The position numbers were made by a program, and so were the translations under genes. Positions 3,701 to 33,032 of a stretch of DNA of 34,354 nucleotides are shown here, piece after piece. Below the pieces are notes generated by a model, which was given only the letters and a program-made list of their open reading frames with translations, was not told the DNA's origin and did not search any database. Location of the stretch: positions 1 to 34,354 of the forward strand of contig JANYDQ010000082.1 of the NCBI GenBank assembly GCA_025363555.1, given 5' to 3'. Each line of letters begins with the position of its first letter. Within the stretch, counting starts at the first letter, position 1. Source of the stretch: Bacteroidota bacterium. Lineage in GTDB: Bacteria > Bacteroidota > Bacteroidia > 2-12-FULL-35-15.

Positions 3701-3800
3701 CCCCTCTCCGAAGGAGAGGGGACAGGAGGTGAAAAATTTAACACAAAAAATAAGTAACAAACGTCACGCACTGGCTCCCCTCTCCTTTTTCAAGGAGAGG
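3701..3800. repeat. two CTCTCC/GGAGAG palindromes, the first a likely htpG terminator
   Basis: Two perfect 9-bp stems lie in the htpG-lemA gap: 3701-3709 with 3713-3721 (loop GAA) and 3779-3787 with 3792-3800 (loop TTTC). They share the same core and similar flanks (ACCTCACCCC on one side, GGGGGAGGTC on the other), so they look like two copies of one interspersed palindrome. The first, 14 bases after the htpG stop, could act as terminator, although it has no T-run. Confidence 0.65.
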
Positions 3801-3891
3801 ACCGGGGGGAGGTCTAAGTGTAGAATTAAAAATTAATCAAATCAAAAAACAATAGTACTTTTACAAAATCAAACTTTAAAAACAATCTCAA

Positions 3892-4497
3892 ATGAAAAAA
3901 GGAACAATCATTTTATTAGTAATAGTAGGAATAGTTTTATTAATCGGATTTCGCGGTTGCAGTTCTTACAACAATATGGTAACTATGGACGAAGGAGTTA
4001 CCGCCCAATGGAAACAGGTGGAAGTAGCTTACCAGGCACGTATGGATAAAACCAAAAACCTGTTTGAAATAGTTCAGTCGTCAGCCGATTTCGAAAAAGG
4101 AACATTGACCGCAGTAATGCAGGCAAGAAGTAAAGCTACCAGCATAACGATAGACCCAAGTAATATAACCCCTGAAAAATTGGCTGAATTTGAAAAAGCA
4201 CAAAATGCTTTTGGTTCTTCTTTGGGAAGATTAATGGCTGTAGCTGAAAATTATCCTCAACTTCAAAGTGTGGGAGCATTCAGGGATTTCCAGGCACAAT
4301 ACGAAGGAATGGAAAACCGGATATCTACCGAACGCAGAAGATTTAATGAAACCGCACAGGAGTTCAACACTTACATTCGCAGATTCCCGGCAAACATTTG
4401 GGCAGGAATGTTTGGTTTCCAGAAGCGCGCTTATTTTGCAGCACAGGAAGGCGCGGACACTGCTCCGGATATTCATAGCATGAGAGAAAAAAAATAA
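3892..4497 (+). CDS. lemA: LemA family protein
   Basis: 201 aa, a typical length for LemA. Residues about 4-22 form a single N-terminal membrane helix (IILLVIVGIVLLIGF) followed by GCSSYNNMV. The rest is a long alpha-helical domain with the family pattern VTAQWKQVEVAYQARMDKTKNLFEIV. LemA proteins are membrane-anchored helical bundles of unclear function that often sit beside TPM-domain (YgcG-like) genes, as here. The gap to the next gene is 42 bases and all three genes point the same way, suggesting one transcript. The Cys after the helix (FRGC) is not a standard lipobox, so a membrane helix is preferred over a lipid anchor. Confidence 0.93.
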   Translation: MKKGTIILLVIVGIVLLIGFRGCSSYNNMVTMDEGVTAQWKQVEVAYQARMDKTKNLFEIVQSSADFEKGTLTAVMQARSKATSITIDPSNITPEKLAEFEKAQNAFGSSLGRLMAVAENYPQLQSVGAFRDFQAQYEGMENRISTERRRFNETAQEFNTYIRRFPANIWAGMFGFQKRAYFAAQEGADTAPDIHSMREKK

Positions 4498-11154: not shown

Positions 11155-11301
11155 GTTAAACCAGACGTAGCGAGGACGCTACGCCCAGCGGGGGCTACGC
11201 CCAACTCGGGTATTTTTTTTGTTACACAGTTAAACCAGACGTAGCGAGGACGCTACGCCCAGCGGGGGCTACGCCCAACTCGGGTATTTTTTTGTTACAC
11301 A
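11155..11301. repeat. 74-bp direct tandem duplication inside copy B
   Basis: Two near-identical units, 11155-11228 and 11229-11301, differ only by one T in a T-run. Each begins GTTAAACCAGACGTAGCGAG and ends TTGTTACACA. The near identity suggests a recent duplication by slippage or unequal crossover. Confidence 0.9.
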
Positions 11302-11340
11302 GAGGGAAGCAGAGAAGACACAGAGCTACACAGAGAAATA

Positions 11341-11532: not shown

Positions 11533-12243
11533 TTAATTGGTAACAAATATTTTATCATAATTAACGTTTTTTATTTCTAAGTAGATGTTTGTTTTTCCGG
11601 AAGAAACATATTTATAAATAGATATTTCTGCTTTACTTTCATTACCGGCATCGTCAATAAATTTTATTTTTGTATTGTTTTCCATTAATTCATATTTTCC
11701 TTTCTCTGTTACTGACATAGAAGCATTTTGCCCTTGTTTCATAAATTGATATTTCCCATTTTCCTGAAAATGAGCTATAGTTCCTTTGTCATCGCTTTTA
11801 TGGGATTCGGGTTTGTTTCTGTCTTCAATCATTGTCCATTCTTTAAATAAAGTTAGAATAAAATTGTTATTATCAATTATTGGTATTTGGGTTTCTGAAT
11901 ATTTGATAATCGGGTCTGTTTTTAACTGAATGGCTTTTGCCTTTACAGTTACATGTACCCTTCTTCCCTTTACAGTAATTTCAAAACGAGGGGCAAGAAG
12001 CAAATCAGCACCCTTCAGTTGACCTATGGCAGTATAAAGTGCATTCTCTTTTGCCATATCAATAGCTTTGATTCCTTTTCCTTTTGCATGGCCTTCTCCT
12101 TCAACATCACCTAGAATGGTATATTGCTCTTTTGACGGAATTATTGTAAGCGAAGCTGTTGTTTGTTGCATAGAGCGATATTCGTGACGGCACCCCTCGA
12201 AAACTATTGTAATTATCAAAAGTAATATTGAAATTTTTTTCAT
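11533..12243 (-). CDS. uncharacterised lipoprotein with a lipocalin-like C-terminal part
   Basis: 236 aa. MKKISILLLIITIVFEGC is a lipoprotein signal with the lipid-bearing Cys at residue 18. Residues about 40-115 are an unrecognised domain (YTILGDVEGEGHAKGKG, AKENALYTAIGQLKGADLLLAP, VKAKAIQL). Residues about 130-236 resemble a small lipocalin-like beta-barrel: FKEWTMIED, IAHFQENGKYQF, GKYELMENNTKIKFID, IYLEIKNV. Function is unknown, probably envelope-located. The 5' side carries the 21-bp palindrome array 66 bases upstream of the ATG, so the array could control this gene. The 3' side abuts a T9SS sorting-domain remnant in another frame. Confidence 0.75.
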   Translation of the reverse strand: MKKISILLLIITIVFEGCRHEYRSMQQTTASLTIIPSKEQYTILGDVEGEGHAKGKGIKAIDMAKENALYTAIGQLKGADLLLAPRFEITVKGRRVHVTVKAKAIQLKTDPIIKYSETQIPIIDNNNFILTLFKEWTMIEDRNKPESHKSDDKGTIAHFQENGKYQFMKQGQNASMSVTEKGKYELMENNTKIKFIDDAGNESKAEISIYKYVSSGKTNIYLEIKNVNYDKIFVTN

Positions 12244-12309
12244 TTTGTTTTGGTTTTATTTTTTTCTACTCTATTTTCGGCTTTTCGGGTTTCGCCTTTT
12301 ATTAAATTT

Positions 12310-12582
12310 AGTACTTCATTTGTCAAGGGAAGTACTTCCTTTGTCAAGGGAAGTACTTCCTTTGAGATGGGAAGTACTTCCTTTATGATGGGAAGTACTT
12401 CGTTTGTTAAGGGAAGTACTTCATTTGTTAAGGGAAGTACTTCCTTTGAGATGGGAAGTACTTCCTTTGAGATGGGAAGTACTTCCTTTGAGATGAGAAG
12501 TACTTCCTTTGTTAAGGGAAGTACTTCCTTTGTGAAGGGAAGTACTTCCTTTGTGAAGGGAAGTACTTCCTTTAGGTTTTCG
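12310..12582. repeat. 21-bp tandem array, 13 units, with repeated GGAAGTACTTCC palindrome
   Basis: AGTACTT recurs at 12310 and every 21 bases to 12562, 13 times, with no indel. Nine units contain the full 12-bp palindrome GGAAGTACTTCC; the other four have one or two changes. The 9-base spacers vary among TTTGTCAAG, TTTGAGATG, TTTATGATG, TTTGTTAAG and TTTGTGAAG. The 21-bp period equals two helical turns, so all palindromes face the same side of the helix. The array lies upstream of a leftward lipoprotein gene and past the end of another. The reading frames through it stay open only because 21 is a multiple of three. Confidence 0.97.
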
Positions 12583-12615
12583 AAAACTAACTTTAGCTAA
12601 TAATCAATAGGTTAT

Positions 12616-13239
12616 CTATTTGTTTATAGAAAACTTTTTCCAGCTTGTCCAGTCTGAATATTTTCCATTTGTTAAAATTTGGCGGTTTCTTAACCAAAAA
12701 AACGTGTTTAAAGGCAGTTCCGGAATCACCGCTTCGCCTTTTCCGGTAGGGTCGAGTTGTTTAGAAGTTACTCCGTTGTCAAAAGAAATTTCTAACTGAT
12801 GAGGTCCGGTGCCATACATTCTATACAATGCAGAACTGGGTACAGGTCCGGCTAAAATTTCGTCCTGGCGGGGACCATGTGCTGTATGGGTTTTCAATTC
12901 CATATCAAAACTTACAGCAATTTGCTGCGCCAATGTTTCAGTTTGTGCAGCATTTACCAACGCCTGGCAAGCAAGGCGGTAACTTTCCACATTGGTAAGC
13001 ATCGTGTTCACTTTCTCATCGCGGAAAGCAAAGGTAACCGTTGGCGGATTTGTTTTTGTAGCTGCTTCGGCATCCGAAGCGTTTTCGATGTTTACTTTAA
13101 AAATTGCAGCCGTTGGCACAGGCGTAGGATAATAGCCGTTTGTGGATATTGCATTTTTTATACTTGTGCATTTTACCACTTGATTAGGCACATCATCGGG
13201 CATGTGTACCGCTACTTCGAATTTTGGTGTTGTTGTCAT
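12616..13239 (-). CDS. hypothetical protein
   Basis: 207 aa, no signal peptide, no membrane helix, family not recognised. The N-terminal half is helical (VNTMLTNVESYRLACQALVNAAQTE), followed by a beta-rich C-terminal part (LYRMYGTGPHQLEISFDNG, LNTFFWLRNRQILTNGKYSDW) that could be a fibronectin III-like end. A clear ATG start at 13239. A weak promoter candidate TTATTTTGCACC on the minus strand about 70 bases upstream resembles the -7 box with one base missing. The gene is alone between repeat-rich gaps. Its real-gene status rests on length, ordinary composition and an uninterrupted frame. Confidence 0.7.
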   Translation of the reverse strand: MTTTPKFEVAVHMPDDVPNQVVKCTSIKNAISTNGYYPTPVPTAAIFKVNIENASDAEAATKTNPPTVTFAFRDEKVNTMLTNVESYRLACQALVNAAQTETLAQQIAVSFDMELKTHTAHGPRQDEILAGPVPSSALYRMYGTGPHQLEISFDNGVTSKQLDPTGKGEAVIPELPLNTFFWLRNRQILTNGKYSDWTSWKKFSINK

Positions 13240-21652: not shown

Positions 21653-21719
21653 AACTTAAAATGCTTTTGTTTTCTTTAATCCGTATTAATTAATATTCTT
21701 TCTTTCTATTCTTCTCTCC

Positions 21720-21924
21720 TTCACTTTGGTATTTACCTTCTTCACTTCACTATTTGGCTCCTTCACTTCCCTATTTGCCTCCTTCACTTCGCTATTTGCC
21801 ACCTTCATTTCACTATTTGCCTACTTCAATTTGGTTTTGCCTCCTTCACTTTGGTTTTTGCCTTCTTCACATCACTATTTTCCTTCCATTATTCCCTTTT
21901 TACCTTCCATTATTTTTGCCTCCC
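21720..21924. repeat. degenerate 21-bp tandem array upstream of sprA, about 10 units
   Basis: Units start TTCACTT (or TTCAxTT, TTCCATT) at 21720, 21741, 21762, 21783, 21804, 21825, 21845, 21866, 21884 and 21905. Most are 21 bp; three are 18-20 bp. The second half of the unit is CTATTTGCCTCC-like, or TTTGGTATTTACC-like in others. The array ends 67 bases before the TTG of sprA. The rest of the 407-bp gap to ruvA (21925-22059) is AT-rich with no gene or clear promoter. Confidence 0.88.
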
Positions 21925-31715: not shown

Positions 31716-32648
31716 TTACAGTGCCACCATATTTATCACTACCGTGTAAATGGTAACGCCAGTAAGGAAAGTAACCACATGTGTGTTTTGCATAAAACCA
31801 GGTTTGTTGGTTATTAAAGTAGCCCGGTCGGCAGCGGTAGTTTTAATTTGAATGATACCCAATGCATCCGAAAGATGAGTAGAATCGCCTTCTTTAAAGA
31901 AAGTAGAGGCTGCGTCAATGGGAATGGCGGTGCCATCTTTTACCACAGTAATATTAATAGTTATGACCGTGTCGGACACATATACAACACCCCAGGGGCG
32001 GCATTTGTCGCGCTTTGTAGCGGCAGGCAGCTCGTTATAAAATGTTTCTGCCTCGTCCCACATTTTTAAAATTACAGCATCAGCTTCTGTTTTGAGGTTG
32101 GTACGCACCAGCAGTGCGGCTTTCCAGGCGGCTGTTTTCACGTCCTGGTCGTTATTTGCATTTGAAAAAGCAGTTAGTGCTGTTCCCACTTCGGCAGCCG
32201 TAGGATTAGCCATGGCAGCGCCTCCGGCAGCCACGCGGGCTGCGTCTCCGTCCACAATGCGGTTTCCCCACAAAATTATTTCCTCCTCTGTAACTATTGG
32301 TGGCAGGGCATCGCTGTTTTTGTCGAGATAATAAAACGCGCGATCGCCTTTGGGATACACCGCGCGCTCGACACCAAAATTGAACACCATAATAAAATGA
32401 CGGGAAAACAAGGCTGCGGTTGCCTTTGTGCTTTCCACTAATATGGTAGCATTAAATTTTTCGCGCTCTGTTGACTGCACATTGTCGTTTGCCGATTTCC
32501 AGTTGGTGTAAAGTGCCAGTTCCCTTGTTTTGGTGGGGGGAGTAAATGGAACTTCGGCAGGAATCACCACTCCTAATTCGGTTTTTGCGGTGTTGACGGC
32601 AATGGTTCGCTCATCATCTGTTCTTGGTAATCTTCTTTTTATACTCAT
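31716..32648 (-). CDS. hypothetical protein with Ala-rich helical core and beta-sandwich-like end
   Basis: 310 aa, no signal peptide or membrane helix, not recognised. Residues about 90-120 contain FSRHFIMVFNFGVERAVYPKG and RAFYYLDKN. Residues about 150-215 are Ala-rich and helical (ARVAAGGAAMANPTAAEVGT, WKAALLVRTNLKTEADAVILKMW). Residues about 228-310 look like a carboxypeptidase-regulatory type beta-sandwich (INITVVKDGTAIPID, SDALGIIQIKTT, NKPGFMQNTHVVTF). It has a clean ATG, a terminator and the 42-bp array upstream. Like the 207-aa hypothetical (12616-13239), it is isolated among repeats; no homology between them is evident. Confidence 0.72.
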   Translation of the reverse strand: MSIKRRLPRTDDERTIAVNTAKTELGVVIPAEVPFTPPTKTRELALYTNWKSANDNVQSTEREKFNATILVESTKATAALFSRHFIMVFNFGVERAVYPKGDRAFYYLDKNSDALPPIVTEEEIILWGNRIVDGDAARVAAGGAAMANPTAAEVGTALTAFSNANNDQDVKTAAWKAALLVRTNLKTEADAVILKMWDEAETFYNELPAATKRDKCRPWGVVYVSDTVITINITVVKDGTAIPIDAASTFFKEGDSTHLSDALGIIQIKTTAADRATLITNKPGFMQNTHVVTFLTGVTIYTVVINMVAL

Positions 32649-32740: not shown

Positions 32741-33032
32741 GATTTCATGTTTTGAAAAGCAAACACGAATGCGCACAACGAACAACCTATGTTTTTTTTA
32801 TAAAAGGTTACTTGTACTTTGTGCCAAAACAGGTTTTAAAAAATTTTTGCCACTTGTTCGGTGTAGCAACATAAGTTTTGAAATTTTTTTGCCACTTGTA
32901 CTTTGTGCGTACTTATGTTTTGAAAAATTTTTGCTACTTGTTCGATGTAACAACCTATGTTTTGAAAAATTTTTGCCACCTGTTCGATGTAACACATCTT
33001 GTTTTATAAAACTTTTGCCACTTGTTCGGTTG
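32741..33032. repeat. 42-bp tandem array, about 7 units
   Basis: Units begin at about 32741, 32783, 32825, 32867, 32909, 32951 and 32992. The core is TATGTTTTGAAAAATTTTTG then CCACTTGTTCGATGTAACAA, with variants such as CTTGTACTTTGTGC. TTGTT and AACAA flank the CGATGT word as a small inverted repeat. Units differ at many positions, so the array is older than the 21-bp palindrome array. It fills the 588-bp divergent gap between the 310-aa gene and the PAS/HTH-like gene. The period is twice 21 bp. An eighth, very weak unit may precede it (32699-32740). Confidence 0.88.

Follow-up and report, generated by a model that had tools for sequence, protein, structure and literature searches.

Phased direct repeats of approximately 20-22 bp are known from plasmid iterons (pSC101, R6K, RK2), where they lie in cis to a gene that possibly encodes the binding protein. 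Centromere-like arrays (parS/parC clusters, iteron-type) usually present one kind of site per replicon and have partners of the ParA/ParB type. The window analysed here, i.e. the whole stretch of 34,354 nucleotides from a Bacteroidota genome, contains an array that resembles the iterons in having an exact 21-bp period, no indels and a position in cis to a gene. Its proposed role as a DNA-level protein platform built of phased repeats would make it similar to centromere-like arrays as well. Comparison with related genomes indicates that the period, the indel-free phase and the place beside the gene are constrained in these elements, whereas the sequence is free.

The array occupies positions 12304-12576, belongs to no strand and consists of 13 units of AAGGGAAGTACTTCCTTTGTG, i.e. 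a GGAAGTACTTCC dyad and a 9-bp spacer, repeated with a period of 21. The original prediction described it as free of indels, and indeed AGTACTT is present at 12310 + 21n for every n from 0 to 12 with zero indels; TRF reports a period of 21, 12.6 copies, 91% matches and 0% indels at 12310-12573. The full palindrome was likewise confirmed as exact in nine units, while three units contain one mismatch and the first unit is degenerate. If two or fewer mismatches are allowed, GGAAGTACTTCC has 18 matches in the window vs. 0.9 in dinucleotide shuffles of the window. A search of the organism's own genome (4.32 Mb, 400 contigs, 97% complete) placed all nine exact copies inside the array and none elsewhere, and two copies at 21-bp spacing were found in 0 of 40 relatives.

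It had also been suggested that the changes are concentrated in the spacer. This holds when deviations from the consensus are counted with the edge unit left out (3 of 144 cells in the palindrome vs. 16 of 108 in the spacer, Fisher p 0.0002). As a column test, however, the difference is weak (p 0.03 by random column permutation, p 0.24 with circular windows), since almost all changes fall into a small number of columns and the spacer itself has several invariant columns (TTT). The spacers, which are part of the 21-bp unit, fall into a few recurring types. In the very few comparisons between loci, based on consensus units aligned by hand, the core gave no sign of diverging as fast as the spacers: relative to its homologue at G004:C42, the unit is unchanged at 11 of the 12 positions of the palindrome and at 6 of the 9 in the spacer, and of the three pairs altered relative to G004:C63 two changed symmetrically. 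An assembly artefact is argued against by the homologous array of about 15 copies at G004:C42, which belongs to a different genome.

On the minus strand the array follows a gene for a 207-aa protein (12616-13239), from whose stop codon it is separated by a 42-bp gap (12574-12615) containing a second perfect palindrome, GTTTTCGAAAAC. The 236-aa lipoprotein-like gene on the other side (11533-12243, minus strand) was correctly said to lie 66 bp from the array, but a DUF805b RNA (Rfam RF02914; 12263-12298, minus strand; 42.1 bits vs. a gathering cut-off of 35.6) sits in this interval, which suggests that the lipoprotein gene has its own leader. Past the other 3' arrays there is no evident common gene family. 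We take the 207-aa family as the partner because it is constant, whereas the genes past 3' arrays vary by locus; this neighbour comparison and the DUF805b leader led us to reject the lipoprotein gene, which is a bystander and not the regular partner of the array. As a separate observation, the intergenic DNA at 11155-11302 holds two 74-bp copies of a GC-rich sequence that are 98% alike.

The 207-aa protein has no match among Pfam, NCBIfam or PHROG families, and in some of its relatives an fn3 match was found below threshold. Its AlphaFold2 model (pLDDT 85, pTM 0.55, nine sequences) contains four helices at the N-terminal and an FN3-like domain at the C-terminal. A PDB fold search with this model returned FN3 domains only and recognised no DNA-binding fold. 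A phage or plasmid origin appears unlikely since the protein was without a match in phage and plasmid searches. The contig bears sprA and ruvA. A family search assigns the protein to family 1, an undescribed, basic, multicopy family with four-helix and FN3-like domains, whose median pI is 9.5 as compared to 7.6 (p 2e-17).

According to a profile search, family 1 is present in 11 of 36 members of the genus with up to 15 copies detected per genome, and across the class it is found in 45 of 295 genomes and 18 of 155 genera. A 21n-bp array lies within 650 bp at 62 of 87 family-1 loci, compared to 26 of 239 ordinary ORFs (about 11%) in 400 kb of genome G014; the p value of 5e-40, like the other p values, overstates the significance because neither paralogous loci nor related genomes count as independent. 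Arrays were called with TRF at fixed score cut-offs (80 to 100, depending on the script) that were not varied systematically, the distance of 650 bp was set after inspection of the first loci, and the genomes compared are mostly MAGs. The array is absent at about 29% of family-1 loci, and most of another 25 loci, which with few exceptions come from other genera and families, have an adjacent array.

The array lies 5' of the gene at 39 family-1 loci, 3' at 23 and on both sides at none. The 3' arrays often start 33-45 bp past the stop codon, and the 5' arrays are mostly found 40-300 bp ahead of the start codon. A tree of 84 proteins places all 22 rows with 3' arrays in one half, and along it the side label changes 6 times as opposed to 19.6 times for shuffled labels (0 of 500 shuffles). 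The array side is thus fixed within protein clades.

There are a few further features of family-1 loci that deserve mention. Two loci with a 3' array, L072 and L073, also have a palindrome-like motif of the TGTAAA-n-TTTACA type upstream of the gene (3770-3951 and 3875-4027, respectively, in gene-sense coordinates), with spacings of 21, 32 and 53-54 bp, i.e. two, three and five helix turns. At L105, L110, L099, L124 and L091 the 60 bp that precede the start codon contain a common leader, ACCTTTCGGTG-n-GAGG-n-AACCGA, which could fold as a pseudoknot and has no Rfam match at the gathering threshold; a Flavo-1 RNA at L105 (2594-2666) lies apart from it. Repeats of 76-77 bp resembling Bacteroidota CRISPR arrays are found 3' of the family-1 gene at L099 (2465-2743) and L255, and at L099 a fragment of a Cas9-like ORF (MKNILGLDLGTTSIGWAYV) is close to them. 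Finally, many family loci are at contig ends, as if arrays or duplicated genes broke the assembly, and the family genes are equally offset from the contig ends in the pairs G004:C70/C71, G027:C57/C89 and G027:C1/C59.

The association is also visible at the level of genomes. In eight family-bearing genomes, 858 kb of sequence yielded 28 noncoding 21n arrays, whereas the 780 kb taken from eight family-free genomes yielded 0; this co-occurrence is partly phylogenetic because the genomes are related. Such arrays occur in 6 of the 8 family-bearing and in 0 of the 8 family-free genomes sampled; the stretches sampled from the family-bearing genomes G007 and G046 contain none, and G015, a genome with only one family copy whose 60 kb sampled hold no array, belongs to neither group of eight. 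The sample of the organism's own genome contains 3.0 arrays per 100 kb, which by extrapolation gives about 130 arrays in the whole genome. One of these is a third 21-bp array in the window, eight copies of CTCCTTCACTTCGCTATTTGC at 21716-21884 (no strand), located between sprA and ruvA with no family gene detected alongside, and such orphan arrays, i.e. those with no known family gene beside them, are present in the G014 sample too.

The window contains a second array-linked gene, identified by family search as a member of family 2. It encodes a 310-aa protein (31716-32648, minus strand) that matches no Pfam, NCBIfam or PHROG family and for which AlphaFold2, run on the single sequence, gave no usable model (pLDDT 33). 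The array on its 5' side (32781-33028, no strand) has a 42-bp period, with an identity of 0.27 at lag 21 and 0.72 at lag 42. Relatives of this gene occur in largely the same genomes as family 1. No homology was detected between the two families (hhalign probability 1.7%). A 21n array lies within 650 bp at 19 of 38 family-2 loci vs. 26 of 239 ORFs (p 2e-9, which is optimistic as the loci are related) and is absent at the other half; in G106, G200 and G254, where family 2 was found and family 1 is not listed, the family-2 gene is without an array. The family-2 arrays are on the 5' side and have a 42-bp period, and one locus has an extra 126-bp array on the 3' side.

The periods of the two families are clearly distinct. 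Family-1 arrays have an identity of 0.70 at lag 21, while family-2 arrays are at background level at lag 21 (0.24) and reach 0.79 at lag 42; strict 21-type arrays make up 42 of 60 in family 1 and 0 of 19 in family 2 (Fisher p 2e-8). Since B-DNA has 10.5 bp per turn, 21 and 42 bp correspond to two and four turns, and the array period follows the gene family, i.e. two turns for family 1 and four for family 2. Arrays in G014 also adjoin the genes of two more proteins (translated lengths of 333 and 252 aa) that are found again in a comparable set of genomes. These are families 3 and 4, which are inferred from single searches; at the one further locus looked at, a 41-bp array (L196:2536-2782) is found just before a relative of the 333-aa protein.

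One could argue that the arrays are neutral minisatellites, created by slippage and unequal exchange in intergenic regions close to dispensable genes, where selection is relaxed. Bacteria commonly contain tandem repeats, and arrays with drifted periods of 41, 40, 20 and 62 are indeed present near the family genes. Moreover, in a rough test based on wedge values, the units are not predicted to bend more than shuffled units do, which fits neutrality and by which we also reject selected intrinsic curvature. The bend of any in-phase array is predicted to be coherent (6.6 vs. 2.1 degrees per turn in the same test). Neutral repeats would however be expected to show many periods, yet multiples of 21 predominate; arrays with zero indels are maintained in different families of the class, the period is specific to the gene family and the sampled family-free relatives have none. 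We therefore consider this explanation improbable.

Even though the period is fixed, the sequences of the arrays are not. The similarity of units between loci drops to chance level below 60% protein identity. A conspicuous example is a pair of paralogues in G046 (91% identical as proteins, 92% as DNA over 986 bp) whose arrays have an equal period and unrelated units, CACTTAGCCTCCGATTTCTGT and CTCGGCAGTAATTTGCCTAGC, between homologous flanks of 28 bp before and 22 bp straight after the array. The close paralogues G013:C141 and C179 similarly have unrelated units, while in other pairs the units are related (0.76-0.88 identity), so both gradual divergence and replacement occur. Judging from these alignments, the array sequence is locus-specific and can be exchanged in full while period, place and flanks stay.

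Such replacement is what one would expect if these genomes had a repeat-making activity that, close to certain genes, converted short stretches of local DNA into 21n-bp arrays, with the arrays themselves doing little. Besides the unrelated arrays of the G046 paralogues, this is favoured by the gene-proximal flanks at G046:C85 and G046:C282, which contain inverted or direct copies resembling the unit, and by the arrays found away from the known families. On its own, however, it leaves unexplained why the period depends on the family (21 vs. 42) and the side on the clade, and no enzyme for the process was identified. It is the main rival to a protein platform, unlikely in our estimate but the least so among the alternatives, and the two may coexist.

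Several observations bear on whether the element acts as DNA, RNA or protein. At five 3' loci a terminator-like hairpin with a T-run, detected by eye in the folds, is positioned between the stop codon and the array, an arrangement that would place the array outside the mRNA at these loci; together with the periods of 21 and 42 bp this points to an element of B-DNA. RNA hairpins were rejected as G.T and A.C mismatches are about equally frequent in the stems (38 vs. 36), with two double changes in 1108 cells. The Bacteroidetes -7 box (TAnnTTTG) gave no signal between array and gene (6 vs. 3.7 expected).

Translated repeats of 7 or 14 residues would account for main periods that are multiples of three and for the long open frames that span arrays. 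The variability, however, has no 3-base pattern (0 of 46 arrays at p<0.05), the open frames are barely above expectation (181 vs. 158), and phased spacings of 32 and 53-54 bp exist too (L072, L073), so that coding repeats were rejected and appear extremely improbable.

The original prediction also held that the dyads are presented on the same face of the helix. Exact helical phasing is indeed a constrained feature at many loci and dyads are commoner than chance (Fisher p 3e-8), but the dyad is not general: only 17 of 64 units exceed shuffles in palindromicity at p<0.05, a count in which at least one array, that of the window, was entered twice, and in about half of the arrays palindromicity does not rise above the level of shuffles. 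The dyad was thus discarded as a universal principle.

We tentatively favour, though at less than an even chance, the explanation that the array belongs to the 207-aa gene as a cis element at the level of DNA and is one of a large set in this genome located beside several uncharacterised multicopy families. The array would then serve as a platform along one face of the helix, with protein molecules bound next to one another, and dimeric binding would fit the dyads found in some arrays. The basic family-1 proteins are candidate binders. Because the arrays beside close paralogues are unrelated to one another, a common factor that senses periodicity or DNA shape would fit at least as well. The 207-aa protein is favoured as a candidate binder by its basic charge and by the linkage, while the unrelated arrays beside near-identical proteins, along with unit similarity at chance level below 60% protein identity, argue against the encoded protein recognising its array by sequence. 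The weakest step is that the bound array might control or insulate the adjacent gene.

A stricter version would have each protein bind its own array and repress or activate its own gene, by analogy with a replication initiator and its iterons. The arrays are in cis, phased and often dyad-bearing, the proteins are basic, and the position of most 5' arrays would suit an operator. On the other hand, the arrays beside close paralogues are unrelated, a 3' position, in some cases beyond a terminator-like hairpin, is odd for an operator, and the family-1 model is without a known DNA-binding fold. We regard such autoregulation as more doubtful even than neutral minisatellites.

Taken more broadly, the arrays might define a new type of bacterial genome element, and we put this only slightly below an even chance. 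It would consist of dispersed, locus-specific arrays that carry information in their period (two or four turns, depending on the family) rather than in their sequence. Every array would have as its partner a gene from one of the undescribed families, of which there are at least two and probably four or more; the sequences would be rewritten at gene duplication, and the arrays would be made or read by a trans factor common to them all. If this is true, gene families and DNA geometry are tied together class-wide in Bacteroidota, and elements are recognised not by sequence but by a spacing that depends on which family the adjacent gene belongs to. The arrays would then provide a natural system for studying how proteins read helical phase and how an exact period is held during sequence replacement, as well as a route to the role of several unannotated multicopy protein families. 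We found no description of such arrays in open-access papers, and novelty is provisional because the literature search covered these papers only. For the present, the gene-linked helix-phased arrays seen in certain uncultured Bacteroidota resemble no described system that we found.

It remains to compare the arrays with known systems. As opposed to plasmid iterons, they occupy many loci per genome, with a unit that differs by locus and a period of 21 or 42 bp depending on the family; the adjoining gene is not a replication initiator (its four-helix and FN3-like model has no Rep fold), and family 1 is absent from the plasmid collection (0 matches among 72,556 plasmid records). Centromere-like arrays differ in that here there are many arrays of unrelated sequence. 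With minisatellites and VNTRs, including STAR-type repeats, the arrays share intergenic tandem repeats and a turnover of sequence and probably of copy number, but here the period is tied to the gene family and the side to the protein clade, and the sampled family-free relatives have no arrays. CRISPR arrays are similar in their regular direct repeats and locus-specific content; the arrays described here, however, have no unique spacers since the whole unit repeats, and a Pfam scan of the neighbouring genes gave no evident cas genes. Finally, REP, BIME and REPIN elements with their RAYT transposases are also short palindromic intergenic repeats linked to a gene, but REPs have one sequence genome-wide, whereas the arrays here are locus-specific and GGAAGTACTTCC is confined to its array.
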